From positions 1 to 44,992 of the IMG/VR virus record IMGVR_UViG_3300005340_000018: DNA of 44,992 nt; one strand, given 5' to 3'. Positions 15,538 to 31,907 of this stretch are shown here, piece after piece (the first letter of the stretch is position 1; each line of letters opens with the position of its first letter). The notes beneath the pieces were generated by a model, which saw nothing but the letters and a program-made list of their open reading frames with translations, searched no databases and was not told the DNA's origin. A program made the position numbers and the translations under genes. The DNA is from a virus.

Positions 15538-15549
15538 GCGAAATTTCGC
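15538..15549. repeat. Perfect 12-bp palindrome GCGAAATTTCGC
   Basis: Perfect inverted repeat in the 42-base gap between the regulatory cassette and the head operon, four bases before the GTTGAC box at 15554. Its size and place fit an operator for a dimeric repressor, perhaps one of the cassette proteins. Confidence 0.6.
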
Positions 15550-15553
15550 ATTT

Positions 15554-15581
15554 GTTGACCGTTCGCCAAGTGCGAATGGCG
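15554..15581 (+). promoter_or_regulatory. GTTGAC box plus start-codon hairpin, copy A
   Basis: GTTGAC (15554-15559), then CGCCA (15564-15568) that can pair with TGGCG (15577-15581). The start codon ATG 15576 sits at the loop/stem border. No Shine-Dalgarno is visible. Three other virion genes have the same layout. Confidence 0.6.
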
Positions 15582-15986
15582 TTCAACCCTTTTATCGGCT
15601 GGTCACAAACCGAGCTTGAGAACGAATTAGAGCTTGCGCAGACCGACCTCGCGCAAGGAAAGACCACGACGCAGGCCGGGGATGGCAATGTCATGGTCAA
15701 AAGCCAGATTTCAGCGCGTCCCGAGGTGCGGATTGAGACCATTTTACGCGCGCTGAACCGAATTGCGCCGAGCACTTACCCACTGGCCGACTGTTTGCGG
15801 ATCACTTCGGCCAGGATCGTTTTCTCAGACGGTCCAGGCGCTTCCAGCGCGGCACCAGTAACTCCACCGGTTCAAAACGCCATCACCTATTCTGGGCCGC
15901 CGTCGATCAACCCTCCTTACATTGCGGCGATCGTTGTCGATTCTGATGGTCGCCAGTGGCAATACTTCCAGGGGTCATGGCATTGA
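15576..15986 (+). CDS. Head completion protein, gpW-like position
   Basis: Start at ATG 15576 (MAFNPFIGWSQTELENEL), chosen over the TTG at 15552 because the family begins this way. The N-terminal 70 residues (ELAQTDLAQGKTTTQAGDGN, then EVRIETILRALNRI) resemble small proteins that sit between large terminase and portal in lambda-like phages and act in head completion. A Pro/Ser-rich linker and a short beta-like C-terminus (VVDSDGRQWQYFQGSWH) extend it beyond the usual gpW size (68 aa). Its end overlaps the portal start by ten bases. Confidence 0.78.
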   Translation: MAFNPFIGWSQTELENELELAQTDLAQGKTTTQAGDGNVMVKSQISARPEVRIETILRALNRIAPSTYPLADCLRITSARIVFSDGPGASSAAPVTPPVQNAITYSGPPSINPPYIAAIVVDSDGRQWQYFQGSWH

Positions 15987-17662
15987 GGACCAAAGCGCGA
16001 CATTCAGCCAAGCTTCCGGCGCCAGCACGTAACGGCTTCCAGGCCGCCGCCGAGCCTTATAAGATTGTAGATCGCCGATCTTCCTTCGGATACGCGAACA
16101 CCTTAATCGAGTCCGCAACCCAGACCCAGGACCGAAAAAAGGTCGATCTCGTCGATTACGACATTCACCGAACGGTCAGCAGCTTTGGCCGGCGCACGTT
16201 GATGAGCCTGGCGCGCACGATGGTTTGGAGGATGCCGGCGCTGGCCGCGTCCATCCTCGAGCAAGCAAACCTGGCAGTAAACCCGTTCCAGCCGATTTAC
16301 CTTGGATCTGATGAGAGATGGGGGAAGCAGGCGCGCGAATGGCTGGATGGATTCCATGCGGTCATAGACGTTGCTGGCTGGCCTTACAATTACGAGAGTT
16401 ACTGCGAAAGCCTGATTTTTAACAATGTCGTTGATGGCGACATCTTCACGCTTTTGACCGAGGACGCCAGCGGCAATGCCAGGGTCCAACAGATAGGCGC
16501 ACACCGCGTCGGTGGTCGGTATCAGACCGGAGGCACTTGCGCCGTGCGTTACGAAGGAAACAAGCTTTTCATTGATAAGGTATTGATCGACGATTCCCTG
16601 CCTTACACCTACGCGACCGCCGTGGAATGGGAGGCGCCGATCATTGATGGGGTTATCCTGGACGACCTCAGCCGCGCGATTGCCTATCGGGTTTATTACG
16701 ACCCGTCTGTCAGTGACAAATACCGCGATATTTCCTCAAGAAACCTGTTTCCCGCCTTCCTGCCGATCATTCCCGGCCAGGTGCGCAACTTCTCGTTGCT
16801 GGCCTCTTCGATATTCGACTGGCAAGACCTTCAGGAGTTCAAACGCTGGGAAATGCTGGCGCAAAAGGCGTTTTCGACAAAGACAATCGTCGAAGAGAAC
16901 GAGACTGGGGACGTGGACACGTCGAAAGCGGTTATTGCATCGCCAGCAACTATGGACACGGACGGCAACCAGACCGCGCCGACGATGCAGAAGCTGGACG
17001 GGGGGATATACACCTATTTCAAGAGCAATACGGGATCGAAACTGACGGCTTTCAATTCCGGTGACCGGCCTGGACGCGGCACGAAAGACTTCATGGACGC
17101 GACCGTTCGCGACGCCTTCCGCGGCACCGAATGGGACGTTTACTTCTCCCTAGATCCTAGCCTTGGCGGTGCTCCGATGCGCACAGTTGTTGATCGCGTC
17201 AATCGCACGCTTAAAAAGCGTCGGCGCATGGTTGAGATGAACGTCAGGCGCGTGGACGTTTACGCACTGGCCAAAGCTATCAAGTCGGGTCAATTGCCGG
17301 CCAATAACGAGTTTTGGCGCTGGACCTATCGTCCGCAAGCCGACATCACCGCGGATCGACGATACGAGTCACAGACGGACATCAAGGAATACGAGAAGGG
17401 GTTTGTGAACTTAGAGGATATTGTCGCGAAACGTTCTGGGGACTGGCTTCAGCGACGCACCCAGCGTGAGGCCGAGGCTCACGACAAACTGACGCGAGCA
17501 AAAGCACTCGCCGACGAGTTTGATATTTCGATCCAGGAAGCATTGAACGAGCTCGGCGAGACCGGCGCAGTCAGCTTCTCAATGGCGCGGCGTGACACCG
17601 GCGAGGACGCGCTGACGACTGATGACGCCGAGGACGAAGGGAAAGGACAGAACGCAAGCTAA
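15977..17662 (+). CDS. Portal protein, lambda type
   Basis: Forms the ring through which DNA enters and leaves the head. Start at ATG 15977 behind CAGGGG; a GTG at 15956 would add seven residues. The sequence begins with a basic arm, then LMSLARTMVWRMPALAASIL and AREWLDGFHAVIDVAGWPYN. The middle has VDGVIL-type strands and FKRWEMLAQKAFSTKTIVEE. The C-terminus (RTVVDRVNRTLKKRRRMVEM, then YEKGFVNLEDIVAKRSGDWL, then an acidic tail) is typical of lambda GpB-like portals (Phage_portal_2). TAATG overlap with the protease gene. Confidence 0.93.
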   Translation: MALRTKARHSAKLPAPARNGFQAAAEPYKIVDRRSSFGYANTLIESATQTQDRKKVDLVDYDIHRTVSSFGRRTLMSLARTMVWRMPALAASILEQANLAVNPFQPIYLGSDERWGKQAREWLDGFHAVIDVAGWPYNYESYCESLIFNNVVDGDIFTLLTEDASGNARVQQIGAHRVGGRYQTGGTCAVRYEGNKLFIDKVLIDDSLPYTYATAVEWEAPIIDGVILDDLSRAIAYRVYYDPSVSDKYRDISSRNLFPAFLPIIPGQVRNFSLLASSIFDWQDLQEFKRWEMLAQKAFSTKTIVEENETGDVDTSKAVIASPATMDTDGNQTAPTMQKLDGGIYTYFKSNTGSKLTAFNSGDRPGRGTKDFMDATVRDAFRGTEWDVYFSLDPSLGGAPMRTVVDRVNRTLKKRRRMVEMNVRRVDVYALAKAIKSGQLPANNEFWRWTYRPQADITADRRYESQTDIKEYEKGFVNLEDIVAKRSGDWLQRRTQREAEAHDKLTRAKALADEFDISIQEALNELGETGAVSFSMARRDTGEDALTTDDAEDEGKGQNAS

Positions 17663-18477
17663 TGAAGCAATACCCGCACATTATTTCTGAGCTTTTCCAC
17701 AAACCACTATTGATCACGCAAGCCAGGCACGCGGCAATTGTTCGGATACTTGAAGCGCGGATTGAGGGTGGTTCAACTGATCGACGCGCGGAGATCGAGG
17801 TAAATCCACCTGACGAATCCGAGCAAGATCCAGCCGTTCAAGTCTTCGGACCATGCGCGATCATTCCCGTGCATGGCGTTGTCACGCGCTACGCTTCCGA
17901 CATTCCAGCTTCGAGTTGCGGGTGCGGCATGGACGTAGTGTCCGCAATGATCGACGAGGCGCAGGCCGACAGAAGCGTTCAAACCATTCTGTTCGACTTT
18001 CGCACGCCAGGCGGATCGGTAAATGGAATTCCTGAAATGGCCGCCAAAATTGCCAGCAGCCGAAAGCAAACCGTCGCGTTTACAGGATCGGAATGCTGCT
18101 CTGCTGGCGTATGGCTGGCTACGCAATGCCAAAGCTTCTTTTGCTCACCGTCTGCCACGGTTGGATCGATTGGTGTCTGGACAGCTTATGCCGACCTGAC
18201 GAAGCAAATGAAAAAGGAAGGCGTGGCAATTCAGAGTATCAGCGCCGGCAAATACAAACTCATGGGTGCCTACTGGAAACCTTTGAGCGACGAAGAAAAG
18301 GCCATGTTGCAGGCTGACGTGGACAAGATTTATGCGCAGTTCAAGGATGCCGTGAATGCGCGAAGGCAGGTCGATGATGAATTTATGAACGGTCAGGTTT
18401 TCGACGGCGAGAAGGCTTGCGAGATTGGACTTTGTGATGGCTTAATCGATGAGATTGGGGAGTTGATCGAGGACTAA
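17662..18477 (+). CDS. S49-family prohead protease (GpC-like)
   Basis: Serine protease that processes the prohead. The fold is shown by CAIIPVHGVVTRYAS, then TILFDFRTPGGSVNGI, then CCSAGVWLATQ with the likely nucleophile Ser147. SPSATVGSIGVW and the AGKYKLMGAYW block follow, with Lys197/Lys199 as the catalytic base. Lambda GpC carries a scaffold part (Nu3) at its C-terminus. Here the protein stops after the protease domain (271 aa), and a separate scaffold-like gene follows, so the two functions are split. Start in TAATG with the portal gene. Confidence 0.92.
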   Translation: MKQYPHIISELFHKPLLITQARHAAIVRILEARIEGGSTDRRAEIEVNPPDESEQDPAVQVFGPCAIIPVHGVVTRYASDIPASSCGCGMDVVSAMIDEAQADRSVQTILFDFRTPGGSVNGIPEMAAKIASSRKQTVAFTGSECCSAGVWLATQCQSFFCSPSATVGSIGVWTAYADLTKQMKKEGVAIQSISAGKYKLMGAYWKPLSDEEKAMLQADVDKIYAQFKDAVNARRQVDDEFMNGQVFDGEKACEIGLCDGLIDEIGELIED

Positions 18478-18480
18478 TTT

Positions 18481-18512
18481 GTTGACGTCCCGCGTTGCCT
18501 TGGAATGGCAAC
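18481..18512 (+). promoter_or_regulatory. GTTGAC box plus start-codon hairpin, copy B
   Basis: GTTGAC (18481-18486), then GTTGCC (18494-18499) pairing perfectly with GGCAAC (18507-18512). The start codon ATG 18505 spans the loop end and the 3' arm. No Shine-Dalgarno is visible. Confidence 0.65.
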
Positions 18513-18969
18513 ATTTAAGATTTTCCACATTTCTAAAGCGAACGCGCGAATCGAGGAACTCGAAACCCAGCTAACGGCGGTCACCAAGGAACGTGACGAA
18601 GCGCGCACCGCACTGGAATCCAACGCCAGCGAGGTTTCCGCCAGCGCAGAGCAGCTTCAAAGGGATCTCGATACCGCCAAGCAGACCATCGGGACGCTTA
18701 CCGGCCAATTAAGCGCGGCCACGACCACTGTCACCGCCAAAGACACCGAGATCGCGGCACTCACCACAAAACTTTCATCCAAGGACGGCGAGGTAAAAAT
18801 TCAAGTCGCGCAACAGGTCGCGCAGACCCAGGCCGCGCTTGGCCAGCCGCCAATGCCGTTGGTTCCCGAAGGCGCGAAAGCCGCAACAAACGGATCGACC
18901 GGCCTTGAAAAGATTGTCGCCGGTTGTCGCGCTGGCCTAGAAGCCGGTGGATTCAAACGCCAGAACTGA
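18505..18969 (+). CDS. Coiled-coil scaffold-like protein
   Basis: From about residue 12 to 100 the sequence is continuous coiled coil, with Glu/Leu/Thr heptads such as ARIEELETQLTAVTKERDEA and ending LTTKLSSKDGEVKIQVAQQV. Then comes a Pro/Gly-rich link and a short helical C-terminus (GLEKIVAGCRAGLEAGGFKR). A coiled-coil protein between protease and capsid genes is the usual place and shape of a scaffold. No sequence family recognised. The start is set by the GTTGAC hairpin element, with no ribosome site. Confidence 0.8.
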   Translation: MATFKIFHISKANARIEELETQLTAVTKERDEARTALESNASEVSASAEQLQRDLDTAKQTIGTLTGQLSAATTTVTAKDTEIAALTTKLSSKDGEVKIQVAQQVAQTQAALGQPPMPLVPEGAKAATNGSTGLEKIVAGCRAGLEAGGFKRQN

Positions 18970-18973
18970 TTTC

Positions 18974-19246
18974 ATGTCCACCGCATCTGACAAAAAGCAG
19001 CACTCCGCACCCTCGCACAAGGAGACGCTAAAATCTCACCACTCAAGAATTGATACCGAGAGGTCAAAGGCAGCTGCTGAGCACGAGAAGCTTCACGATC
19101 TAATCGTCGAGATCCAGAAAATGGATATGCCGACCACTCCCGCTTTTCGGAAGCACATGGACAAGACTCAAGAACAAAGCTCGAAGCTGGGCGGGGTTCT
19201 CGTGGCCTTGAGCGACCTTAAACACCCCGAAATTTCCGAAAGCTAA
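18974..19246 (+). CDS. Small charged protein, 90 aa, between scaffold and capsid
   Basis: Start at ATG 18974, five bases after the scaffold stop; an upstream GTG at 18947 would overlap it. Rich in His, Lys, Glu and Ser (SDKKQHSAPSHKETLKSHHS) with helical segments (AAAEHEKLHDLIVEIQKM) and a C-terminal LGGVLVALSDL. No family known. Its place suggests an assembly or minor head protein. Confidence 0.75.
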   Translation: MSTASDKKQHSAPSHKETLKSHHSRIDTERSKAAAEHEKLHDLIVEIQKMDMPTTPAFRKHMDKTQEQSSKLGGVLVALSDLKHPEISES

Positions 19247-19264
19247 ACCACCGAACAAAAATTT

Positions 19265-20251
19265 ATGGCTGACACATTTTTAACGCTGCTCGACATCACC
19301 AAGCAGAACGGCACCGATCAGGCCGTCGGCGTGGTGGAAGAGGTCCGCACTTACGCTCCTGAAGTCGATGTTTTACGGGGTCGCGCCATCAAGGGGACAA
19401 CCTACAAAGCTCTTGTGCGAACAGCCCTTCCAGGCGGCCCCGCTTTTCGTGCAGCCAATACCGGCGCGGCGGTTATAGCCAGCCGCTGGGATCAGCGCGT
19501 CAATCAAGCTTTCTTCCTCGATGGCCAGGTCCGTATCGACGAAGCGGTTTTGAACGCTTCCGAGTTTGGACCTGAATTTGTGATGGCCAACGAGGTGACC
19601 GGCGTGGTGAAGCAGAAGATGATCGCGCTCGGCAATCAGGTTTACTACGGCAACCCCTCAACGACTGACTTCGGTTTCGCTGGCTTCGTTTATCTCTACG
19701 ACCCGGTCGCAATGGAAGTCACCGCGAACGCAACCGGATCTCTTGGCGCCACCACTTCGAGCGCCTGGCTCGTCGTAAACAAGCCTGACTGTGCTGAATT
19801 CATTTACGGCAACAACAAGGGCCTTGAAATGGGTCAGTGGATGAAGCAGGCCATCATCGGCACGAATACGCAATACATGGGTTGGGTGAACAATCTCAGC
19901 GGCTATGTCGGACTGTCTTTCAATTACGCCAAGTCAGTTTGCCGGATAAAGAACCTGGCCGCCTACGGCACCGCATCAAACACAGGTTTGACTGATGAGC
20001 TGGTCGCCGCGGCACTGGCAAAATTCCCGGTTGGAGTGGTTCCGACTCACCTGTTTTGCACACGCGCACAGCGGTTCTTCCTGCAATCCAGCCGCACGCC
20101 GGTTTATTCGAGCGCCGGCAAGGCTGGGGTCACCGCCAGCCTCAGCTTGCAGTATGCGCCGACGCCGACCGAATCCAACGGCATTCCATTGATCGTGACT
20201 GACTCAATCCTCGACACCGAGACCGCGACAACTGCCGCCACGCCTTACTAA
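19265..20251 (+). CDS. Major capsid protein (HK97-fold candidate)
   Basis: Called from position (after protease and scaffold, before a cement-like protein), size (328 aa) and composition: Ala/Thr/Gly-rich, few Cys, mixed beta. Recognisable capsid-like parts are DQAVGVVEEVRTYAPEVDVL at the N-terminus, DGQVRIDEAVLNASEFGPEF, a long helix MANEVTGVVKQKMIALGNQV, VYYGNPSTTDFGFAGFVY, and AQRFFLQSSRTPVY near the C-terminus. These resemble major capsid proteins of phages with GpC-type proteases. Family-level identity needs a structure or profile search. Confidence 0.85.
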   Translation: MADTFLTLLDITKQNGTDQAVGVVEEVRTYAPEVDVLRGRAIKGTTYKALVRTALPGGPAFRAANTGAAVIASRWDQRVNQAFFLDGQVRIDEAVLNASEFGPEFVMANEVTGVVKQKMIALGNQVYYGNPSTTDFGFAGFVYLYDPVAMEVTANATGSLGATTSSAWLVVNKPDCAEFIYGNNKGLEMGQWMKQAIIGTNTQYMGWVNNLSGYVGLSFNYAKSVCRIKNLAAYGTASNTGLTDELVAAALAKFPVGVVPTHLFCTRAQRFFLQSSRTPVYSSAGKAGVTASLSLQYAPTPTESNGIPLIVTDSILDTETATTAATPY

Positions 20252-20282
20252 ACCGTAACGACGAAACGACCAAGCACACTTT

Positions 20283-20702
20283 ATGGCAACACAAGTTTTG
20301 AACACTCGGTTGATGCGCGATGCCGCACTGGTCATCACCAAGGCTCTCCCAGGCACCAGCGCGAGCAACACGACCGACGCGATTGACATCGGCTCTGGAC
20401 CTTTCCGACCTGAAGAAGTCGTGGTTGAGGTTAAGATCCCGGCCATCGCCGAGCACGTCACCGCAGGCAATCATATCGTTATCGCGCTTTGGCACGCGGA
20501 TACCACGACCCTGGCCGCGCCAGTGGAGCCTGTCCCGGCTATCACTATTGATCGGATAGGCGTGGTTTCAACTGGATCTCTTGGCAGTGTGTGGCGCTTC
20601 AAACTTCCGATTGGAACGAAGCGGTATATCGGCTTCCGGCAAACGGCTGGCGGCACGGACACGCTGTCCGGTTCATCGATCACATACTCGATTTTGGTAT
20701 AG
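20283..20702 (+). CDS. Capsid cement/decoration protein (Bbp16-like)
   Basis: A 139-residue, all-beta, Thr/Ile/Val-rich protein directly after the capsid gene. The N-terminus (LMRDAALVITKALPGTSASN, then AIDIGSGPFRPEEVVVEVKI) resembles Bbp16-type cement proteins, which begin with a DAQAIT segment, a D-(I/L)-G turn and then strands. The end has SVWRFKLPIGTKRYIGFRQT. Likely stabilises the expanded head. It is the last gene of the head operon; a strong terminator follows 29 bases downstream. Confidence 0.72.
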   Translation: MATQVLNTRLMRDAALVITKALPGTSASNTTDAIDIGSGPFRPEEVVVEVKIPAIAEHVTAGNHIVIALWHADTTTLAAPVEPVPAITIDRIGVVSTGSLGSVWRFKLPIGTKRYIGFRQTAGGTDTLSGSSITYSILV

Positions 20703-20730
20703 GGTCACGGGTGATTGTTTAGGGTTCTGA

Positions 20731-20771
20731 TTGGCTGGCTGGCTCGCGCTGGCCAGCCAATTTGGTTTTTT
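20731..20771 (+). terminator. Rho-independent terminator after the head operon
   Basis: TTGGCTGGC (20731-20739) pairs perfectly with GCCAGCCAA (20752-20760), followed by TTTGGTTTTTT. Nine base pairs and a T-rich tail make it the clearest terminator in the window. It separates capsid genes from the signal-peptide fibre cassette. Confidence 0.9.
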
Positions 20772-20776
20772 AAGAT

Positions 20777-21493
20777 ATGAAAAAGAAATTCGCTTTTGCC
20801 GCTCTTTGCCTGATCGCTTTGGCTGTATTCGCCGAGGACATTGTCAATCGCACGATCCGCTACCGAAAAGACGCGGTGATCAGCATTGATGGCACCGTTG
20901 TTTTCAAGGACGAAGATGCGGCGTGGACAAACAAGAGTCCGAACTTCCGGGCGCTTTCATTTATGAGCGGGTCGCTGGTGGACGGCGCTCCGGCCTTACA
21001 GTTCGGATCTCAGAACTTTATTTTTGAGGATGCCACAAATGGCGGAAACAATGGGATAGTCTCTATCGGTAACGGTTCATGGGATCGCGACTTTATATTT
21101 TATGGAGTCAGCGGCCAGCTCTGGATGAGGGGCGCGATTATGATGGGAACAAACGATCCATCGCAATGGCCAACAGCGCCAACTGGTGGAGGTGGCTCGG
21201 CTGTTGTAAACTCGAACGGCACAACCTACCTCCTTTCCTCCCTACCCAACACAGCGACGTGGGCCTCAACCAATCCCGTAGCTCCAAATATACGATTCGG
21301 GACTTCTGCAACCGGAAACAATAAGTCAGTCACGAACACATTCGCTCCGGGGTTCTCAAGCACGCCAGTTGTTACCATAGCCGCCGGAACAAACGACTTG
21401 CCTCACCTGATAACCGTCACAACGACAAACGTCATTTTCGGCGCGGCACAAACAAACGCTTCGATTCGCTGGATTGCGATTGGATCACCATGA
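20777..21493 (+). CDS. Secreted fibre-like protein with Sec signal peptide, 238 aa
   Basis: Residues 1-19 (MKKKFAFAALCLIALAVFA) are a textbook signal peptide with a likely cut after AVFA. The rest is beta-rich and full of Asn/Thr/Gly/Ser. It includes a GGGGS hinge near residue 137 and ends in a small domain with PVVTIAAGTNDLPHLITVTT, which resembles the receptor-side beta-sandwich of fibre tips. It follows the capsid terminator directly and is coupled by ATGA to another signal-peptide protein. Whether it joins the virion is unknown. An export signal on a phage structural protein is unusual. Confidence 0.78.
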   Translation: MKKKFAFAALCLIALAVFAEDIVNRTIRYRKDAVISIDGTVVFKDEDAAWTNKSPNFRALSFMSGSLVDGAPALQFGSQNFIFEDATNGGNNGIVSIGNGSWDRDFIFYGVSGQLWMRGAIMMGTNDPSQWPTAPTGGGGSAVVNSNGTTYLLSSLPNTATWASTNPVAPNIRFGTSATGNNKSVTNTFAPGFSSTPVVTIAAGTNDLPHLITVTTTNVIFGAAQTNASIRWIAIGSP

Positions 21494-21906
21494 AAAAAGA
21501 CACCATCCTTCTACTGTTTGTCTGCTCGATTATTTTCGCAGCGGCGCTCTATTTGATTCCTGAGTCTCGCGCTACCAGCTTTCCCCCTGGCCAAGCCAAC
21601 AACACAATCAACCTGACGCTGCTTTCGACAACCACGTCGAACAAGACTGGCAGCGCCTTTTTTGTCGAGAGTGTCAGCCTGCACACGCTTCAGCTAACCA
21701 CATTTGCCGGGACGAACGTTTGCAGCAATATCATTTCCGCAAGCTTGGACGGCGTCGGGTGGGTCAATATCGCAACGCAGTCTTACGGCACAAACTCACT
21801 CACAAACTTTCTGACGTTCTCGGGAAGGTATTCGTATATCCGCGCATCCTTCGGAACGACAACCAACACCACAAACACGATACTTTATCTCGGCGGCAGG
21901 CAGTAA
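21490..21906 (+). CDS. Secreted Thr/Asn-rich beta protein, 138 aa
   Basis: ATGA start. N-terminal residues 1-28 contain a hydrophobic core (TILLLFVCSIIFAAALYLIP) and end in SRAT, so it is exported or anchored. The mature part is Thr/Ser/Asn-rich beta (NLTLLSTTTSNKTGSAFFVE, then FAGTNVCSNIISASLDGVGW). It could fold as a small jelly-roll-like or fibre-tip domain. No family recognised. It is the second of four consecutive signal-peptide frames (20777-23877). Confidence 0.7.
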   Translation: MKKDTILLLFVCSIIFAAALYLIPESRATSFPPGQANNTINLTLLSTTTSNKTGSAFFVESVSLHTLQLTTFAGTNVCSNIISASLDGVGWVNIATQSYGTNSLTNFLTFSGRYSYIRASFGTTTNTTNTILYLGGRQ

Positions 21907-21913
21907 AAAACGC

Positions 21914-23877: not shown

Positions 23878-24224
23878 GCGCCGAAATGGAACGAGCCGCT
23901 TCCGCGTTGCAAACCGCGATTGCGGATGGCGAGATCGACGCATCCTCGACCTTCACTTGGAAAGGGACGGACTATCCCTGCATCGGCGTCTGGAACGAGA
24001 CGAGCTACATGGGACCAGGCGGAATGACCCCACTGGACGATCTGACGTTGCAAGTCTTGAAAACTGAGTTTAGCGGCGGATCAACCATTTTCACCGGCGT
24101 AGATTTCCCGAAACTCAAGGACGACGTGATCTTTCAGGGTAAAACTTTCAGGATCGATATTATCCAGCATTCGCCGGGGAATTACATCAAATACACCTGC
24201 ATTGACCCGGCGAAGGGGAGTTGA
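23859..24224 (+). CDS. Head-tail connector/minor head protein, 121 aa
   Basis: Helical N-terminus (LLSAEMERAASALQTAIADG), then a beta-rich domain (FTWKGTDYPCIGVWNETSYM, VLKTEFSGGSTIFTGVDFPK, IFQGKTFRIDIIQHSPGNYI). The pattern of strands with a final I-x-x-x-GxYI(K/R)Y recalls head-tail joining proteins of lambda-like phages, and the downstream genes are connector and tail genes. Function by context and shape only. The next gene is a homing endonuclease that appears to interrupt the operon. Confidence 0.72.
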   Translation: MANSLLSAEMERAASALQTAIADGEIDASSTFTWKGTDYPCIGVWNETSYMGPGGMTPLDDLTLQVLKTEFSGGSTIFTGVDFPKLKDDVIFQGKTFRIDIIQHSPGNYIKYTCIDPAKGS

Positions 24225-24249
24225 AATTTTGGTGTTTTCCGTCTAAAAT
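24221..24249 (+). promoter_or_regulatory. Sigma70 promoter for the homing endonuclease, possibly leaderless
   Basis: TTGAAA (24221-24226), a 17-base spacer, then TAAAAT (24244-24249). The expected transcription start falls at about 24256, the A of the start codon, so the message would have no leader. The gap is clearly AT-richer than its surroundings. Confidence 0.65.
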
Positions 24250-24255
24250 CCAAGC

Positions 24256-24771
24256 ATGAAAATAGCCTTGGGAAACGGTCTTTTTGCGGAGATTGACGAC
24301 GCGGATTATGATTTGATTTCTCGGTTTCGCTGGCACGTCACAAAAGGGCCGAAGGTCGCACGAACTTTTTACACTCAGGCCTATGTTGGTGGCGGACACA
24401 AGAACCAAATCTCCACATCAATGCACCGGCTGATTATGTCGACACGCGATGGTGAAATGGTTGATCATATTGACGGGGATGGCTTAAACAATCGGAGGAG
24501 CAACCTTAGAATCTGCAATCAGATTCAAAACTGCGCAAACTCCCGACCGCACCTCGATAGCAAAATGAACTTCAAAGGGGTGCGATTCAAAAATGATGCC
24601 AACCGAAAGAAGCCATACGCCGCCAGAGTTAGATTCAATGGGTCTTTTTATCATCTCGAGCACTTCACAACCGAGAAGGAGGCCGCAGAAGCTTACGATG
24701 CAAAGCGGCTAGAGCTATCAATGGAATTTGCTGGCACAAACGCCAAGGTCGCCAGCGGGGGATTTGCCTGA
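24256..24771 (+). CDS. HNH-AP2 homing endonuclease
   Basis: Selfish free-standing endonuclease. The N-terminus (ALGNGLFAEIDDADYDLISR, then FRWHV) is the usual substrate-like lead of this family. The HNH part is MHRLIMSTRDGEMVDHIDGD (residues 56-75), followed by GLNNRRSNLRICN. The AP2 DNA-binding domain is at about residues 107-155 (FKGVRFKNDANRKKPYAARV, ending EKEAAEAYDAKRLEL). It has its own promoter and lies between two structural genes whose products should be adjacent. It ends in a TGATG overlap with the next gene. Probably a recent insertion. Confidence 0.92.
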   Translation: MKIALGNGLFAEIDDADYDLISRFRWHVTKGPKVARTFYTQAYVGGGHKNQISTSMHRLIMSTRDGEMVDHIDGDGLNNRRSNLRICNQIQNCANSRPHLDSKMNFKGVRFKNDANRKKPYAARVRFNGSFYHLEHFTTEKEAAEAYDAKRLELSMEFAGTNAKVASGGFA

Positions 24772-25487
24772 TGCCTGTCGGATGGAACCAGGAAGGCTTC
24801 GACAACGCTTTCAAGGAACTGATCAGGAATTGCGAAAGCTCGAAATGGCCTCGGTCACTTAACAAGCACGGTTTATTCGTCACCCTCCGGGCACTCAAGG
24901 AAACCGAGCGCGCCAGTCCTGAAAAGATATTCCATGAACTTGGTCGCGAGATAACCGCCAAGCGCGAGAATGGCACCAGTGGACCCCTACCGATAAGCAT
25001 CGCCATCGCGGCAAAACGCGCCTCGAGGTCCTGGACCAAGCAAGGCGACATCACCGGCCATTCGAAGGCGCAGAAGGCGAAGGAGATTCGCAAACTGAGC
25101 ATTAAAGCCTGGCGCAACCAGATCACAAAGAAACTCAAAGGCATGTTGAAAGGCCGAGAAATCTCAACCTCATTCATCAAGTCCGGCTACGTGACGATCA
25201 TTCAAAAGCTGGGACCGATCATTGGTGGACGGTACGATCGCAGCGGGGGCCGCGGCGTCCCTGTCAGGGGATCTGCCAAGGGTCGAGTAAGTCCAGCGAC
25301 ACCAGGAAACCTTCAATTAGTGATCGAAAACTCGGCATCGGCTAAAACCGAAAAGCGCGGCGGGTTTCATAGGGTGGCGGATCGAGCCTTTCAGATAGCC
25401 TTGGACGCCGAAGCGAACCAGATCCTCAATCACCTTACCGACGAAATGAAGCCGGAAGTTGACCATTTCAACCGGCGCCAGCATTGA
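24771..25487 (+). CDS. Minor head/tail completion protein, HK97 gp10-like
   Basis: A basic, helical 238-residue protein (TLRALKETERASPEKIFHEL, AAKRASRSWTKQGDITGHSK, AKEIRKLSIKAWRNQITKKL). It ends in VADRAFQIALDAEANQILNH, a helix like the end of HK97 gp10-type tail completion proteins. It sits where a neck or tail completion protein is expected, before the tail terminator and tube genes. Assignment is by position and general shape. Confidence 0.62.
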   Translation: MPVGWNQEGFDNAFKELIRNCESSKWPRSLNKHGLFVTLRALKETERASPEKIFHELGREITAKRENGTSGPLPISIAIAAKRASRSWTKQGDITGHSKAQKAKEIRKLSIKAWRNQITKKLKGMLKGREISTSFIKSGYVTIIQKLGPIIGGRYDRSGGRGVPVRGSAKGRVSPATPGNLQLVIENSASAKTEKRGGFHRVADRAFQIALDAEANQILNHLTDEMKPEVDHFNRRQH

Positions 25488-25505
25488 CCGCCAGCCGCTA
25501 TTGAT

Positions 25506-25766
25506 ATGAATACACTGATAACGTTAGCGGATTTTTCATTGCGAACAGGCGGAAGCGACAATGGCTTTATTAACGCCCTGCTCACACTGCTTGTAATTGG
25601 GGTTTGTGTCGGCCTTATTTGGGCTTTTGGTCGGTGGATAATCCAGAAATTTGCAGCTCCTCCGGCTGTGATGGTTTGCCGGAATGGCCTCTTTTTGTTC
25701 CTGGGACTTATCTTCGTTATCAACTTCTTGGTCTCTTTGACGGGACACCCATTCATTCGGCTGTAG
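25506..25766 (+). CDS. Two-segment small membrane protein, 86 aa
   Basis: Two clear hydrophobic segments: ALLTLLVIGVCVGLIWAFG (about residues 25-43) and GLFLFLGLIFVINFLVSL (about 61-78), joined by a short basic loop with a Pro pair (KFAAPPAVMVCRNG). This is a class II holin-like layout, but it is surrounded by tail genes, far from the lysis cluster at 37.6-39.7 kb. TTGAC lies 17 bases before its ATG, without the hairpin seen in the four GTTGAC elements. It could be a holin, a superinfection exclusion protein or a membrane-active tail component. Confidence 0.72.
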   Translation: MNTLITLADFSLRTGGSDNGFINALLTLLVIGVCVGLIWAFGRWIIQKFAAPPAVMVCRNGLFLFLGLIFVINFLVSLTGHPFIRL

Positions 25767-25775
25767 GGTTCAAAA

Positions 25776-26291
25776 ATGGACCTCCTTTCCTTAGCCGATC
25801 GCGCTTTGGTCGCTTACATCCAGTCCGTGCTTATCGGCACCGACGCGGCTGACAACGTCAGGCCGGCCAAGGACTCCGAGATCAAGTATTTGCCGCAAAC
25901 CGTTTGCTGGTCGCACTCATTCAAGATTTGTGACGATCAGGAATACTCTGGCAATTTCGATGTTGAATCTTTTATCGAGATCCGCACTGACGCGGTTATT
26001 CAAGAGAACCAGTCACCGGAGGAACCGAGCGTTAACGCGCGCAACCGTATTAAGGCCACATTCGAGCTATTCCTGACGCCTAACAGCGACGAGTCCGGCT
26101 CGGCATTAGGTGTGGCCATTACGGACGCGGCCAGGGCCTCGAGCAGCGACTTCAACAACTTCACGATCCAATGCTGCCGAATCGTCGAAGGGAACCAGGG
26201 GTTTAACCCGAAGACACTAAGGGATCGTGGCAACGCCTGGGTGGACGTGATTCATTTGGAACTGATTTGCTGTCCGTCGGACGTGCAATGA
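25776..26291 (+). CDS. Tail terminator-like protein, 171 aa
   Basis: Acidic mixed alpha/beta protein (LLSLADRALVAYIQSVLIGT at the N-terminus, then VESFIEIRTDAVIQENQSPE, NRIKATFELFL, and WVDVIHLELICCPSDVQ at the end). It has the size of, and lies in the slot used by, tail terminator or tail completion proteins just before the tail tube gene. No motif proves this. Several Cys (CWSHSFKIC, QCCRI, LICC) are unusual for a virion protein. Confidence 0.65.
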   Translation: MDLLSLADRALVAYIQSVLIGTDAADNVRPAKDSEIKYLPQTVCWSHSFKICDDQEYSGNFDVESFIEIRTDAVIQENQSPEEPSVNARNRIKATFELFLTPNSDESGSALGVAITDAARASSSDFNNFTIQCCRIVEGNQGFNPKTLRDRGNAWVDVIHLELICCPSDVQ

Positions 26292-26292
26292 C

Positions 26293-26320
26293 GTTGACGC
26301 TTTGGCCATTGCAGAATGGC
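26293..26320 (+). promoter_or_regulatory. GTTGAC box plus start-codon hairpin, copy C
   Basis: GTTGAC (26293-26298), then GCCATT (26305-26310) pairing perfectly with AATGGC (26315-26320) over a four-base loop. The start codon ATG 26316 lies in the 3' arm. No Shine-Dalgarno is present. Confidence 0.7.
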
Positions 26321-26774
26321 TGATGAAGTCCAAACAGGCAAAGCGACAATCCACGGCATCCGATCCTCCGGCAGTGCTTTGGGAATCACCGGCAGCGACT
26401 CAACCCTTGCGGGTTACGTAACCTTCATTTGGGATTCTGCCAAGGCTGGCCACAAGTGGGACACCGAGTTTATCAAGGACGAAAAGAATTTCGACGCCGC
26501 GGCGGTCGCCACGAACGCGCACATCGAACTCGACATCATGTTTACGCCGGCTGGCACCTCACGCTCTGACGTGGCCGGCAAAGCAAAGTTTGTTCTGCCA
26601 AACGCGAAGGTGACTCTCTCAGGTTTCGAGTCCGAAGATTTCAACGGGGATTATCTCTTACTCTCCGACCACGCTTTGGATCTCTCGAAGAAGGAAGCTA
26701 AAATGTCCATGAAGCTGCGCAAGTATGACGACGAAACGCAAAACGCTTCCATGACCACGACCGTCAGCGGATAA
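26316..26774 (+). CDS. Tail tube (major tail) protein candidate, 152 aa
   Basis: Beta-rich, with few Cys and helical ends: GKATIHGIRSSGSALGITGS, TLAGYVTFIWDSAKAGHKWD, AHIELDIMFTPAGTSRSDVA, and YLLLSDHALDLSKKEAKMSM. Size and place between terminator-like and tape-measure genes fit a tail tube protein. Its start is controlled by the GTTGAC hairpin element, which may help to boost or time this abundant protein. Family not recognised by sequence. Confidence 0.7.
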   Translation: MADEVQTGKATIHGIRSSGSALGITGSDSTLAGYVTFIWDSAKAGHKWDTEFIKDEKNFDAAAVATNAHIELDIMFTPAGTSRSDVAGKAKFVLPNAKVTLSGFESEDFNGDYLLLSDHALDLSKKEAKMSMKLRKYDDETQNASMTTTVSG

Positions 26775-26805
26775 ACCCACCACTTTTTGAAAGGATCATA
26801 AAATT

Positions 26806-27210
26806 ATGGCAGCAGCAAAACTAACGGTGACACACAAGGTTTCCTGGGTGCCTGGCGGCGGGGACAGTATCGTATTTGTCGGCCAGGAAAGTCTTTCCCA
26901 GGTCGGAAACGATGCGAGCGAGCGCACGCAAGCTTTCACCTCTACCACGAGCGCGGTGGTTGTCGGAGCTTGCACTGGCGACAAGTATTTGGGAGTCAGA
27001 AACAGCACGGAACTCGGCGACAATCCCACGGCAACCCAGATCACAAACGCGACACTCTACCTTGATATTGTGACTCCGGTTGTCCCGAGCACTGCGCAAT
27101 TTAAGCTTCCTCCCGGCAAGGCCATGCTGATCTTCACCGCTCAAGATACGTGGTATGGGATCACAGGGTCGGCTGGAGCGAATGCAATTGTCGCCGCCGT
27201 CGAGTTGTAA
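26806..27210 (+). CDS. Small beta-rich virion protein, 134 aa
   Basis: ATG 26806 behind a good AAAGGA ribosome site. Thr/Val/Ala-rich beta protein (KLTVTHKVSWVPGGGDSIVF, then QAFTSTTSAVVVGACTGDKY, ending FTAQDTWYGITGSAGANAIV). It resembles small tail or decoration proteins in general, without a specific family. Alternatives are a second tail tube-like protein or a capsid- or tail-surface decoration. Confidence 0.7.
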   Translation: MAAAKLTVTHKVSWVPGGGDSIVFVGQESLSQVGNDASERTQAFTSTTSAVVVGACTGDKYLGVRNSTELGDNPTATQITNATLYLDIVTPVVPSTAQFKLPPGKAMLIFTAQDTWYGITGSAGANAIVAAVEL

Positions 27211-27221
27211 CCCTCAATTTT

Positions 27222-27860
27222 ATGCACGAGTCGCTGCTTGCGCGGGCAGCGAGACCCGCACTGGTTGTTATTCTCGGCCTCTTAATGAGGCCGTTTTCTA
27301 TTGGTCACAAGCTTCTGTTGGTGCGCGAGGGAAACCCACTGGCCGAGGATAATGACGCACCAGCCGAAAAGTTAGCCGAGGCCGCGTTGCTCTGTTCTCA
27401 GTCGTGGACTCAGTCGGCTAGAATGCCGTTTGACCCACTGATCCGTTTCAAGCTTTGGCTTTGGGGTATTCGCGTGCGTCGGCTATTGAAAAAGCAGGGT
27501 GTGTATTCCCAACTCAAAGCGTTCGTCGATTATCGCAACGCTGGCTCAATGGCGTTTGCGCCGAGCGACTTCATTGAAAGGCCAGACTCGTCCAATGGAA
27601 TGAAGCCAAGGCCGCCGCGCGGCACCCCGCCGATCCTGATCCTTCAACAGTTTTTAGTTTCACAGCTTCACCTAACCGATGACCAAGCCTGGGATCATCC
27701 TTACGGCCTGGCCATGATGCGCTGGCAGTCTCACTGGGAAGGCGAGGGGTGCTTTATCGTGTATAACGAATGGGATGCAAAACAGGACGCCTTCATTTCA
27801 AAAGAGGAAGCGGCGCGCATTAATAAAGAACAGGAGGAAAAATGGCTGGCCCGACCTTGA
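27222..27860 (+). CDS. Tail assembly chaperone candidate, 212 aa
   Basis: Start at ATG 27222 (MHESLLARAARPALVVIL); a longer frame to 27150 would run into the previous gene. The block LLMRPFSIGHKLLLVREGNP is one I recognise from proteins placed just before tape measure genes. The C-terminus is Lys/Glu-rich. It overlaps the tape measure start by 19 bases. In many long-tailed phages this slot makes chaperones by frameshifting; I see no convincing slippery sequence here. Function by position. Confidence 0.68.
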   Translation: MHESLLARAARPALVVILGLLMRPFSIGHKLLLVREGNPLAEDNDAPAEKLAEAALLCSQSWTQSARMPFDPLIRFKLWLWGIRVRRLLKKQGVYSQLKAFVDYRNAGSMAFAPSDFIERPDSSNGMKPRPPRGTPPILILQQFLVSQLHLTDDQAWDHPYGLAMMRWQSHWEGEGCFIVYNEWDAKQDAFISKEEAARINKEQEEKWLARP

Positions 27861-29218
27861 TGGCGATTTTGGGTTTGAATACGGGGCCGTTTAAGGCGGC
27901 GGCCCATGACGCGCAACACGTGGCCTCACACTTGGGCAATCAAATCAAGGGGGCGCTTGCCGGTTTCATGGGAGAAGAGGCGATCCGGCAAACCATCGAG
28001 TGGGGGGAATCTATTTTCAACACTGCGGTCAAGCTCGGAATGACAATAGAAGAGGTTCAGAGGCTGGATTACGCCTTGAGACTTCAGGGAACATCGCTTT
28101 TAGAAAACAGCAAGTTCTTTGAGATGCTGTCTGTCGCACGCGATAAATACTCGCGTGGGGCCGCCAAGCCAGAACAGGTGAGCGCGTTTAAGAATTTTGG
28201 GCTGACACCAGCCGATGCAGCGAATAAGGATGTCAGCTTCGTTAGAGCCATTGCCGAATCGGTCAGTGCCGGGGGGATGGATCAGGACCGCTTGATGGCA
28301 AGTCTTAAAGCCGTCGGTGGAAGGGGAGCAGCCGCGATGATTACCGCTTTCAAAATGGGGCTGGTCGATCTCATGGATGACGCGCCAATTGTTGATGATG
28401 AAACAATAAAAAGGCTCAAAGAGGTTGCGGATGAAATGAAGGATCTTTTCATTCAAATAAAAACAGGCATGGCGCTAATAGTCAGCGAGATCACACCCAT
28501 GTTTCACACGTTGTTAACTGGGTTGAACGTGGGCTTAATAAAAATCTTCGGGGATCTCTCCTATGCTTTTGGTGGCAACCTTACCGGCGAGCAATTGGTG
28601 GCTGGCTACATGGAGAATCAGGTTAAAAAGGATATGGCCAGAACGATAGCAATGGAAAAGGCGCTTCATGCTGGGGCCGCTGGCGATGATCCGTCCGACC
28701 CCGCCGGGGAGAAGGCACGCGAAAAATCCAAAGAGAAATTCGATAAAGAGATAGCGAAGCTGGCCAAGGAAAGACACGACACTGAGCAAAAAAACTATTA
28801 CAACAGCCTCTCACTCGAAGGCAAGCTTGCCGACGCGCAGATCCGCCGAAAGAATCTGGTAGCAGAGATCGCTAGACTTCATAAAGAAGAGGACCGCTGG
28901 AACTCGGCTTCAGATGAGGAAAAGAAGGGAGCTGGATGGATCTCCGGTGCTCGAAATGTCGCGGAGCTTATCGCGCAAGCTGAGGTTGAAAAAGCAAAGC
29001 TGGACACCGAATTTGCCGGACTATTCAAGAAGGAAAACAAAAAAACACATCACCACGCCGCAGACCTTAACTCGCTTCAACGAATCGGCGGCATGTTCGT
29101 CTCTTCACCCCTCGAAATGAGCACGCTCGAAGTTGCGCGCAAGACAGAGCACAATACTCGCCGACTTCTCGAACACTTCCACGGAAACAAAACCGGCTGG
29201 CATAGTCGAAATCACTAA
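27842..29218 (+). CDS. Tape measure protein (short)
   Basis: Sets tail length. Residues 1-70 begin the usual helical pattern (AILGLNTGPFKAAAHDAQHV, then GNQIKGALAGFMGEEAIRQT). The middle is Ala/Gly-rich and amphipathic with hydrophobic stretches (MALIVSEITPMFHTLLTGLN). Residues about 280-400 are a charged coiled coil, and the C-terminal SLQRIGGMFVSSPLEMSTLE...TRRLLEHF block is typical of tape measure ends. At 458 residues it predicts a short tail of roughly 65-70 nm by the usual 1.5 angstrom per residue. Strong AGGAGG site. TAATG with the next gene. Confidence 0.82.
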   Translation: MAGPTLMAILGLNTGPFKAAAHDAQHVASHLGNQIKGALAGFMGEEAIRQTIEWGESIFNTAVKLGMTIEEVQRLDYALRLQGTSLLENSKFFEMLSVARDKYSRGAAKPEQVSAFKNFGLTPADAANKDVSFVRAIAESVSAGGMDQDRLMASLKAVGGRGAAAMITAFKMGLVDLMDDAPIVDDETIKRLKEVADEMKDLFIQIKTGMALIVSEITPMFHTLLTGLNVGLIKIFGDLSYAFGGNLTGEQLVAGYMENQVKKDMARTIAMEKALHAGAAGDDPSDPAGEKAREKSKEKFDKEIAKLAKERHDTEQKNYYNSLSLEGKLADAQIRRKNLVAEIARLHKEEDRWNSASDEEKKGAGWISGARNVAELIAQAEVEKAKLDTEFAGLFKKENKKTHHHAADLNSLQRIGGMFVSSPLEMSTLEVARKTEHNTRRLLEHFHGNKTGWHSRNH

Positions 29219-29976
29219 TGCCTCAAGTCAGAATCAACGGCAAGATCGGACCGATCCGGCAGCGGATCAAGATCAGTTATGATCCGCAGCACGGTCAGAC
29301 TATCGGCATCCCATTTGAAAGCGCAGGCTTTGGTTTGCAAGGATTGGCTTCCGAACTCGAAGCCTTGCGTGTCGCGTATGATCTTGAGCCGAACGAGCGC
29401 AAGAGCACACTTGTTGCAAAGCCGTCGGGTGGCCAGCTCGGGATTCCAAACAAGACCGTTGATGAGTGGCAGCTATTGCCGAACGAGCAGCAGTTGAGCA
29501 TTCAATATGCTCCGCGAGCAATAGCTCTTGGACAAACCCAACTGGACGCAATTGCAAAAGCGGTTCGTGACAATGAAGATTCGACGTTTAGCGGGGACGC
29601 GGCGGAAGTATTTTCAAGGCTGTTAAGTGGTGAAGCGCACTTTGCGACAAGCCAGCAGGTTCTCCACCACAATACGAATGTCTGGGATGGATACCCCGGC
29701 AATGTGGCGAACGTGAACGCTGGAAGGATTTATACGACCGCTCAACTTCTCGACGAGTGCAGCAATACGAATTACTGGGTGTATCCGATACCGGCTGGAA
29801 TTGTCGGCGCGGTCGAAGCAGAAGAGGCGAGCGGTCCTCCTGCTCAATCCGGCTGGCAAATCGGCTGGCGCAAGCTCAAGCCGAAATTTGCGACCGCGGC
29901 AGGCAATAGGATTTCAGTCTCAACCGAATACTGGTTTGGTCAGTGGGATCTTTTCTATTACTCGCTGGCGACATGA
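29218..29976 (+). CDS. Distal tail/baseplate protein, 252 aa
   Basis: TAATG start in overlap with the tape measure gene. Mixed protein: VRINGKIGPIRQRIKISYDP, GLQGLASELEALRVAYDLEP, then AIALGQTQLDAIAKAVRDNE. A Trp/Tyr-rich C-terminus follows (WVYPIPAGIVGAVEAEEASG, then WQIGWRKLKPKFATAAGN). Located where distal tail genes lie in long-tailed phages. No family recognised. Confidence 0.7.
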   Translation: MPQVRINGKIGPIRQRIKISYDPQHGQTIGIPFESAGFGLQGLASELEALRVAYDLEPNERKSTLVAKPSGGQLGIPNKTVDEWQLLPNEQQLSIQYAPRAIALGQTQLDAIAKAVRDNEDSTFSGDAAEVFSRLLSGEAHFATSQQVLHHNTNVWDGYPGNVANVNAGRIYTTAQLLDECSNTNYWVYPIPAGIVGAVEAEEASGPPAQSGWQIGWRKLKPKFATAAGNRISVSTEYWFGQWDLFYYSLAT

Positions 29977-30545
29977 TCGGTTACAACCCAACGATCCCCG
30001 GCGGAACAGATCCAGAGTCTGTGTGGAAGCGTTCCGTTGAGGAAAGGCTGAGGGCCTTGCGCATTGTCGAAGTCCCGAACGCGACGGTCGAGCGCACAAA
30101 TCGCGGGACAAAGATCATCCCAAAAGCCATAGCGATCAAAGGCGGCTCGGCGCCAGCCAAACCCACAACCTTCATTTTGAAACTGGTGATGGGTGATTAT
30201 CTCGTATGCGATGGGGGTGGGGAACTCGACGTTAAGATCGCAAAAAACCCAAAGCTTAGAAACTCGATCCTGATGGAAGACTTGCCGAGCATTGATGGAC
30301 TCATTCACGCGACTTATGAATATACGAGCACTGAGGTTAGGGTCGCGACGTTCCATGATCCCGGTTCAGGCCTTACGATTACAGAAACCCAAGTGATCGT
30401 GCCGCGCTACCTTCTCGGCGATCAGATCCTTGCGATGAAAGTTACTGGATCGACTTCGGTCGATGATCCAGATGTTGAAGGAACAAAGATCCCATGGATC
30501 GACTTGAACAACGACGCCAGGGCATGGTCAAGGAGTTACGCATAA
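29973..30545 (+). CDS. Tail/baseplate protein, 190 aa
   Basis: Start at ATG 29973 in ATGA with the gene before. Opens with a Pro/Gly-rich stretch (YNPTIPGGTDPESVWKR), a helix (VEERLRALRIVEVPNATVER), then a basic beta region (KIIPKAIAIKGGSAPAKPTT) and strands to the end. The next gene starts directly after its stop. No domain recognised; assigned to the tail by context. Confidence 0.7.
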   Translation: MIGYNPTIPGGTDPESVWKRSVEERLRALRIVEVPNATVERTNRGTKIIPKAIAIKGGSAPAKPTTFILKLVMGDYLVCDGGGELDVKIAKNPKLRNSILMEDLPSIDGLIHATYEYTSTEVRVATFHDPGSGLTITETQVIVPRYLLGDQILAMKVTGSTSVDDPDVEGTKIPWIDLNNDARAWSRSYA

Positions 30546-31874
30546 ATGCCACGTCTGGACATTGCGTTTTCTGAGTCTCGCGCAAGGCAGTTTGTTGAAA
30601 GTCCTGGACGCCAAAGAGACACGCCGCAGATCACAAGGTGGAATCGCTGGTGCCACGTTCAAAAGGAGATGGGCGGAATAAATTCTTTTCTCTACTTCCC
30701 GCAGTTGTCGAACGCGACGAATAACCCGTTTGAATTGGATCGAAGGTTGTTTTCGAGGTGGGACACCATCACCGACAAGGTTGATTACGTCCAGGGAGTG
30801 ATACGAGACGACGGAGGAAACATTTCAAGAAATGCAACCGATGTTCATTACACGGGAACAGGTCAAAGAATTGGTCCGGGCTTGCACGCGATCTCTTCGG
30901 GTTATCAGGATATTCCACATCCGGGAAACGACTTTTTTCCGCCTCAACTTCCGCAGAGATTTTATCGCTATGGACCGCCAGATCCTGTTGGCCAATTCAA
31001 TATCCCTGGCGAAAGTGGCGCCGCACCATCCTGGCCATACATAAACCGAAACTGGGACATGGTGGCAGACTTTGTCGGCATGGATGACACGTCGCTAGGG
31101 ATGCACCACACTCCGATTGATACCGGCGACCCAAACTATAGTGACGCTGACATCACGTTAAGGTCGGAGTTGTCAGATCCTACGGACTGTTCGGGGATGT
31201 TTTCAAGGTGCAGGACAGACCTGAAGAATGAGGTTTTTCCAGTGCCGCTAACAGGCGGGCCGAGCAGGTTGATTATTTACAACGACGGGTTTGGCAGTCC
31301 CTGGAAAATTGATAACGGAAATTTTGACACCCAAGCGCACATCCCCTCTCTTTACGATGGGGCCTTGCAACGGATCGAGGGGTTTGGATTGTCTGATATT
31401 TTCGTTTTTCCTTATCTCGATTATCGCGTGATTTCATTTTCAGGCTGGGCTTTATCGCCAAGCCTATGGGGGAGCCATTCCAAATTGTATCTTGAGCCAG
31501 ACCTTCAAGCTGGGGCGGCCTTTGGATTCCCAGACCTGTTTTTGGCTCGCGGCCAATTCGGCCTGGCTGGATATGGTCGGCAGCCTTACTGGATCGGTCG
31601 ATGCCGAACGTGCGGGCCGTCCACCGGCAACATGCGGCTATTCCCGCTTATCGGTGACGGCCATTGGCTTTGCACAACTGAGGTGATTGAAACCGGCATA
31701 TTCACAAGTTCGATAGTTGCCGAGATAACCTTTCCCGACGATTCGAGTCCCTACCCACTTCAGCAGATCGGTGATGGAATGGTGGCTCAAGACGTTATTT
31801 TCTTTGCTTTGGGAGAAGTCCCGACAAACCCGAATGACTTGCTGACCCCAGGAGCGCACTTTGCGCCACCTTGA
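30546..31874 (+). CDS. Large tail/baseplate protein, 442 aa
   Basis: Starts immediately after the previous stop. Beta-rich and aromatic (RFYRYGPPDPVGQFNIPGES, WDMVADFVGMDDTSLGMHHT, IFVFPYLDYRVISFSGWALS), with a CGPSTGNMRLFPLIGD stretch near the C-terminus. Composition and position between distal tail and fibre genes suggest a baseplate hub or a host-contact protein. I do not recognise a family. Confidence 0.72.
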   Translation: MPRLDIAFSESRARQFVESPGRQRDTPQITRWNRWCHVQKEMGGINSFLYFPQLSNATNNPFELDRRLFSRWDTITDKVDYVQGVIRDDGGNISRNATDVHYTGTGQRIGPGLHAISSGYQDIPHPGNDFFPPQLPQRFYRYGPPDPVGQFNIPGESGAAPSWPYINRNWDMVADFVGMDDTSLGMHHTPIDTGDPNYSDADITLRSELSDPTDCSGMFSRCRTDLKNEVFPVPLTGGPSRLIIYNDGFGSPWKIDNGNFDTQAHIPSLYDGALQRIEGFGLSDIFVFPYLDYRVISFSGWALSPSLWGSHSKLYLEPDLQAGAAFGFPDLFLARGQFGLAGYGRQPYWIGRCRTCGPSTGNMRLFPLIGDGHWLCTTEVIETGIFTSSIVAEITFPDDSSPYPLQQIGDGMVAQDVIFFALGEVPTNPNDLLTPGAHFAPP

Positions 31875-31879
31875 CCCAT

Positions 31880-31907
31880 GTTGACGCCTTAGCCATAGCG
31901 AAATGGC
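31880..31907 (+). promoter_or_regulatory. GTTGAC box plus start-codon hairpin, copy D
   Basis: GTTGAC (31880-31885), then GCCAT (31892-31896) pairing with ATGGC (31903-31907) across a six-base loop. The whole start codon ATG 31903 lies in the 3' arm. No Shine-Dalgarno is visible. Confidence 0.68.

Follow-up and report, generated by a model that had tools for sequence, protein, structure and literature searches.

The virus record IMGVR_UViG_3300005340_000018 (positions 1 to 44,992; this 44,992-nucleotide [nt] stretch is the window analyzed here) carries at four virion gene starts a short element consisting of a box, GTTGAC, followed by a hairpin that contains the start codon. Across related phages, the box (NTTGAC) stands upstream of certain virion genes only and usually has a pyrimidine-purine (YR) step exactly 13 nt beyond it, and in the phages closest to the window the spacer and the start-codon region show signs of selection for pairing with each other. 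We tentatively favor the reading that these elements are late promoters of the phage family, at which transcription would start at the YR step to give a near-leaderless mRNA, and that RNA reading through from upstream would be locked by the hairpin.

Searches of the viral collection with portal, capsid, and terminase sequences retrieved roughly two dozen records with proteins roughly 45 to 100% identical. Shine-Dalgarno (SD)-poor initiation has been reported in members of Verrucomicrobiota (PMC10783764), and the host of the window phage is probably in that phylum, because the only two named relatives were Verrucomicrobia phage P8625 (portal, 28%) and Akkermansia phage Chantilly (capsid, 33%). 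No prophage relatives were found in genomes with capsid or terminase profiles. For comparison, the relatives were divided into working groups drawn from similarity and G+C content, not from a tree: clade A (the window, G003, G007, G009, G019, and L033), clade B, of lower G+C content (G010, G018, L028 to L032, L036, and others), and clade C (G004, G006, L011, and L093 to L100). From these we collected 54 elements (17, 15, and 22 in clades A, B, and C, respectively), chosen without regard to the YR step. To our knowledge, very little work has addressed how phages of Verrucomicrobiota regulate their genes or how translation starts are made in that SD-scarce phylum.

When hexamers were counted, with no prior motif, between −30 and −18 relative to the gene starts in nine records of related phages, GTTGAC was the most overrepresented of all 4,096 (21 versus 2.25 expected; z = 11.3), and the next unrelated hexamer reached a z of about 5. 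An enrichment of GTTGAC in related phages, which a preliminary description of the window had offered as a check, was thus borne out, and the box is kept at orthologous genes. It is present in all three clades, always oriented with the gene and with the start codon 20 to 28 nt away. Orthologues of the head-completion-like and scaffold genes carry it (G, sometimes A or T, then TTGAC) in nearly every relative, as do orthologues of the first tail gene and of the gene starting at 31903 wherever they exist; in the orthologue alignment, portal, protease, and tape-measure genes are without it. In the 39-kb genome G010, the five best matches to a clade B weight matrix all lie directly upstream of starts in gene orientation. 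Alignment on the box revealed, in addition, a weaker patch 4 to 8 nt past it, GC rich (GCC or GGC) at box-aligned positions 10 to 14. Chantilly has no such box, and a scan of the viral collection with the clade B consensus returned only the known relatives and three contigs without homology to the window; since no convincing unrelated carriers were found, there is no sign that the element is shared by unrelated phages. Separately, the ATG of the major capsid (window 19265) and decoration-like (20283) genes is immediately preceded, in nearly all relatives, by an A-rich stretch whose last bases are ATTT or TTTT, and AGGAGG-like sequences are seen at tape-measure genes in the orthologue alignment. 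In clade B records, the box of the head gene and that of one scaffold gene are preceded, at a distance of 11 to 20 nt, by an inverted GTCAA(C/T) (for example, L030 4044, L032 2829, L036 1345, G010 4058, and G018 27443); it was rejected as a core part of the element, being present at only 8 of 61 sites, mostly in clade B.

The YR step occupies offset 19 to 20, exactly 13 nt past the box, in 46 of the 54 elements (14/17 in clade A, 15/15 in clade B, and 17/22 in clade C), compared with a background of 25% and with no more than 43% at any position counted from the start codon. Where the start codon is 20 or 21 nt from the box, the step is found in 10 of 10 elements; in the ten elements with a start 19 to 21 nt away, the purine is partly forced by the start codon. 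Where the start codon is 24 to 28 nt away, the step is found in 9 of 12. After similar spacers were reduced, the proportion was 20/25. The position of the step is set by the box rather than by the start codon, and this fixed geometry (NTTGAC-N13-YR), which resembles that of a transcription start, points toward transcription initiation. A mini-open reading frame beginning at the TTG of the box and ending with a stop at offset 19 was considered and rejected: most copies in clade B have it, but in clade A the base at offset 19 is usually C, so that the pyrimidine is kept and the stop is not.

Because the register of the stem differs between elements, whole-element alignment with MAFFT leaves the 5′ arms unaligned, and we therefore assessed pairing by swap tests and an anchored alignment. 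Exchanging spacers and starts between elements lowered pairing, both among all elements (z = 6.7; 0 of 5,000 exchanges) and when the exchanges were confined to elements of one phage (z = 3.9; 0 of 5,000). By clade, the test was clear in clade A (stem z = 5.1; energy z = −5.1; within-phage, 3 of 3,000; redundancy-reduced z = 4.4), marginal in clade B (z = 2.0, with energy not significant), and not significant in clade C. The preliminary description had made pairing beyond the fixed ATGGC its own refutation test. The GCCA/TGGC core is the part fixed by the shared Met-Ala start, and the flanking positions thus lie outside it. Among the clade A elements anchored on that core, the four flanking positions paired more than swapped ones (P = 0.001 to 0.03, depending on the measure), and a pair counter gave a covariation score of 0.219 versus 0.099 ± 0.032, a value reached by 1 of 500 shuffles, with the qualification that these covariation and flank counts treat related elements as separate. 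Sliding the covariation partners gave lower scores. At the head gene, G003 and G007 keep the CGTTCGC/GCGAATG register of the window, and in G007 the compensatory changes include the start codon itself, ATG having become GTG and its partner T having become C. Of the 17 clade A elements, 14 fold better as the sense than as the antisense strand, as would be expected for RNA rather than for a DNA palindrome. Counts of G-T versus A-C closing mismatches (15 versus 10) were too weak to serve as proof of RNA and were set aside. Starts without an SD sequence are generally unstructured (PMC3121790), whereas the mean folding energy was −7.3 kcal/mol at box-bearing starts, compared with −3.1 at other starts and −2.2 at other ATGGC starts. 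Taken together, these tests indicate selection on pairing that is well supported only in clade A, with marginal support in clade B and none in clade C. The repeated element noted in the preliminary description is real, as is the sign of selection on structure in the window's own lineage, but the universal part of the element is the box, which clade C keeps without support for a hairpin, and the box-N13-YR geometry had been missed.

According to the model that we favor, the NTTGAC box, the GC-rich patch, and the YR step would constitute a phage-specific late promoter in all clades examined, read by some factor whose existence we infer, and transcription would begin at the purine of the YR step. 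The resulting mRNA would be leaderless or have a leader of at most 8 nt, which would fit hosts in which SD starts are scarce. In clade A, where the spacer between the box and the YR step appears complementary to the start-codon region, read-through RNA from an upstream promoter would hold both arms, fold, and hide the start codon, and RNA initiated at the YR step, lacking the 5′ arm, would be translatable. If translation is limited to the latter RNA, expression of the late genes would be confined to their own late transcripts. Most clade A hairpins have the YR step either between their two arms or at the base of the 3′ arm, so that a transcript starting there would lose the 5′ arm; predicted start-codon pairing falls from 0.75 to 0.47 once the RNA begins at the YR step, and 0.47 equals the value for other starts treated alike. 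The elements head late gene blocks, and an intrinsic terminator that closes the capsid block of the window is found at the same place in G006, G007, G009, G010, G018, and L030/L032, which suggests that late transcription is split into units. More doubtful is the broader proposition that NTTGAC-N13-YR represents a new class of late promoter, with its box some 15 to 19 nt before the start site, serving near-leaderless virion mRNAs in an SD-scarce phylum, and that one lineage turned it into a two-state switch through a spacer complementary to the start codon. If true, the model would show how a start codon can occupy one of the more stable local structures of a genome. For named genes, the element also predicts precise base positions, those of a 5′ end and of a hairpin.

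A number of observations weigh against the promoter model. We know of no promoter class with TTGAC at about −19 to −15. Sigma-70 region 2 was not found in the six records searched, and T7-like RNA polymerase (PF00940) was found in 0 of 6, although the control genomes gave no signal for the latter either; no nonstructural gene common to all clades presented itself as a reader of the box. Eight of the 54 elements, including element 2 of the window, lack the YR step at offset 19. All strong copies of the box in clade B genomes stand directly at starts, which a translation signal would explain equally well. Clades B and C are without convincing hairpins, and the hairpin layer is for that reason lineage specific. 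Finally, the element of P8625 has a different geometry, with its box 37 nt from the ATG. A sigma-70 promoter was also rejected: promoters of this type have TTGACA, a spacer of 16 to 18 nt, a TATAAT-like −10 sequence, and a start site about 7 nt further on, and we found no −10 information at the position predicted from the box, where a −10 sequence would fall in the coding region and the transcript would begin inside the gene. No promoter-like match was obtained at the four sites. The three possibilities raised in the preliminary description (a translation switch, a late promoter, and an RNA element) were the right ones to list, except that the findings are at odds with a promoter of the sigma-70 type combined with an operator.

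The main rival, which we consider unlikely, is an RNA-level switch like that of Mu com/mom, in which a phage or host protein would read GUUGAC on a long late mRNA and open the start-codon hairpin or, as a repressor, close it. In Mu, the GUG start of mom lies in an inhibitory stem adjoining the Com site (PMC6483171), and the selection on sense-strand structure in clade A, together with a box that is always gene oriented and 20 to 28 nt from the start, is what such a switch would predict. An RNA switch has no need, however, of a YR step fixed at 13 nt whatever the distance to the start, nor does it account for clades B and C, which keep the box without hairpin support; moreover, no Com-like protein was noticed among the annotated genes, and no regulator was common to all clades. 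We regard as distinctly improbable some other type of asymmetric DNA-binding site, resembling an operator or stoperator, that would occupy the short gaps separating late genes. The fixed bipartite sequence, its single orientation, its intergenic location, and the inverted GTCAA(C) 11 to 20 nt upstream at some clade B sites would all suit a DNA site, but the strict tie to the start codon and the pairing in clade A without a conserved stem sequence would then be unexpected, and the inverted copy occurs at few sites only.

The pairing could also be a by-product, in that a GCCA conserved at a fixed place happens to match the common Met-Ala start ATGGC, an explanation to which we give slightly less credence again. 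It holds for much of clade B, where GCCAC is kept even with ATGCC or ATGAA starts and the swap test is marginal. It is contradicted in clade A, where pairing drops even when the swapped elements have both GCCA and ATGGC in common, and where the flanks covary. Least probable of all, in our estimation, is a translational-coupling hairpin, whose 5′ arm would be melted by ribosomes finishing the upstream gene, thereby licensing the next start. The stop codon of the upstream gene does precede the box by 1 to 20 nt in the window, and in many relatives it is also nearby, and the clade A hairpins hold the start, but coupling leaves the invariant box, the fixed YR step, and the hairpin-less clades unexplained.

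The statement in the preliminary description that no element like this one had been described was too strong, given what is known of T4 genes (PMC3014915), Mu mom (PMC6483171), and cluster K mycobacteriophages (PMC3203893). In T4, the start regions of genes e, soc, 49, and I-TevI are sequestered in a helix; the late promoters of gene e lie in the region encoding the 5′ strand, so that early read-through RNA is folded and late RNA, without that strand, is translated, and a late promoter likewise lies inside the 5′-strand region of I-TevI (PMC3014915). The elements described here resemble the gene e type in concerning late phage genes with the start in a helix and in having a candidate transcript start that would leave the late transcript without the 5′ arm; in silico, a helix that would sequester the start codon in read-through RNA as in gene e is found in clade A only. 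They differ in that gene e uses a TATAAATA late promoter and T4 late transcription needs gp55, whereas here the candidate signal is NTTGAC-N13-YR, an SD sequence is lacking, no sigma factor was found, and each genome carries the signal at several virion genes. If the favored model is correct, the T4 trick of locking read-through transcripts would have arisen elsewhere with a different promoter and without SD sequences. As in Mu com/mom, the start codon is in a stem beside a short sequence signal, but Mu has one such gene and a known protein (PMC6483171), and the present element is repeated and has a fixed box-YR spacing. Cluster K mycobacteriophages carry start-associated sequences (SAS/ESAS) of unknown function (PMC3203893), which are likewise short asymmetric repeats lying immediately ahead of the start codons of various genes, in some cases together with an inverted repeat. 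Unlike the present elements, SAS have the sequence GGGATAGGAGCCC and touch the start, their authors saw little support for an RNA hairpin, and the hosts differ (PMC3203893); the consensus here is NTTGAC-N13-YR rather than GGGATAGGAGCCC next to the start codon.

P8625 (L068) also has a TTGAC-like box with an inverted repeat right before the gene preceding the portal gene and before tail and fiber genes. At four late genes, a TTGACA-like box precedes the ATG by exactly 37 nt and is separated by a 17-nt spacing from a TA-rich sequence, an arrangement that would be compatible with near-leaderless promoters. The same genome contains a palindrome, GTATCC-N7-GGATAC, with 24 matches (≤2 mismatches) versus 3.6 expected, among them copies at 5426, 8089, 9634, 10750, 11267, 15573, and 17515; four copies end directly before late gene starts that have the TTGAC-like box at 37 nt. 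A term search of the P8625 genome paper found no description of this palindrome.

The coordinates of the window elements and their genes, whose labels (head-completion-like, scaffold-like, and tail) rest on position and weak matches, are given in Table 1. The four GTTGAC/ATGGC sites are present as first described, with stems 4 to 7 nt after the box; at site 1, the stem proposed at that time exists, but the most stable fold is a different one, of 7 pairs, that holds the whole ATG. Also as reported, the SD sequence is absent at all four starts. The distance from the end of the upstream gene to the ATG is 42, 27, 24, and 28 nt for elements 1 to 4, respectively. In the window, the joint pattern had four forward matches versus none in a reversed-pattern control, the GTTGAC hexamer as such was rarer than expected (14 versus 23), and Rfam 15 gave no matches above the gathering score. 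Just ahead of the first box, at 15538 to 15549, lies a perfect 12-bp palindrome, GCGAAATTTCGC; a GTCAC..GTGAC inverted repeat near the same position is common to the window and G003.

Table 1. Start elements of the window, the genes that they precede, and the terminator of the capsid block
Feature	Position	Strand	Remarks
Element 1, GTTGAC box	15554..15559	+	ATG at 15576, distance 22; orthologous gene in relatives has G/A/T-TTGAC
Element 1, hairpin	15560..15581	+	Most stable stem CGTTCGC (15560-15566)/GCGAATG (15572-15578)
Element 1, alternative stem (preliminary description)	15564-15568/15577-15581	+	CGCCA/TGGCG; loop 8
Element 1, YR step (CG)	15573..15574	+	13 nt past box; candidate transcription start
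Small pre-portal gene, head-completion-like, MAFNPFIG family	15576..15986	+	Start set by conservation; no PHROG or Pfam match
Element 2, GTTGAC box	18481..18486	+	ATG at 18505, distance 24
Element 2, hairpin	18494..18512	+	GTTGCC (18494-18499)/GGCAAC (18507-18512); loop 7
Scaffold-like coiled-coil gene	18505..18969	+	Between protease and major capsid genes; label from weak coiled-coil matches and gene position
Intrinsic terminator, strong	20729..20765	+	15-pair stem and T run; after gene 20283-20702, closes capsid block, past element 2 and ahead of element 3
Possible fifth, weaker element, ATTGAC-N13-TG	25483..25505	+	23 nt before ATG at 25506; no clear hairpin
Element 3, GTTGAC box	26293..26298	+	ATG at 26316, distance 23
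Element 3, hairpin	26305..26320	+	GCCATT (26305-26310)/AATGGC (26315-26320); loop 4; YR at 26312-26313
Gene heading tail block	26316..26774	+	Orthologues in G007 and G009 likewise box bearing; no family match
Element 4, GTTGAC box	31880..31885	+	ATG at 31903, distance 23
Element 4, hairpin	31892..31907	+	GCCAT (31892-31896)/ATGGC (31903-31907); loop 6; YR at 31899-31900
Gene preceding 1699-aa distal tail/fiber gene	31903..32538	+	G007 orthologue box bearing; no family match; no relative from single-sequence scan

Several other features were noticed. The sequence TTTAGAATTGT is repeated at about 5571, 6370, and 6846 of the window, 17 to 23 nt before the early genes at 5591, 6387, and 6869, and is perhaps an early promoter −10 sequence or another repeat. 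A classical-looking promoter, TTGACA-N18-TAATCT, is conserved upstream of the clade B terminase region (L026:70, L027:1263, L034:2323, and L039:38). Ahead of the tape-measure gene are two overlapping genes, the second of which contains, at 27275 to 27293, a hairpin, CGGCCTCTTAATGAGGCCG, followed by TTTTCTATT, that is identical in G007 (10468 to 10449), where the proteins are only about 50% identical; this hairpin is possibly a terminator or a recoding signal. The window also encodes a PAPS-reductase-like gene (5591 to 6361) and a ParB-like/DNA methyltransferase fusion (42787 to 43908).

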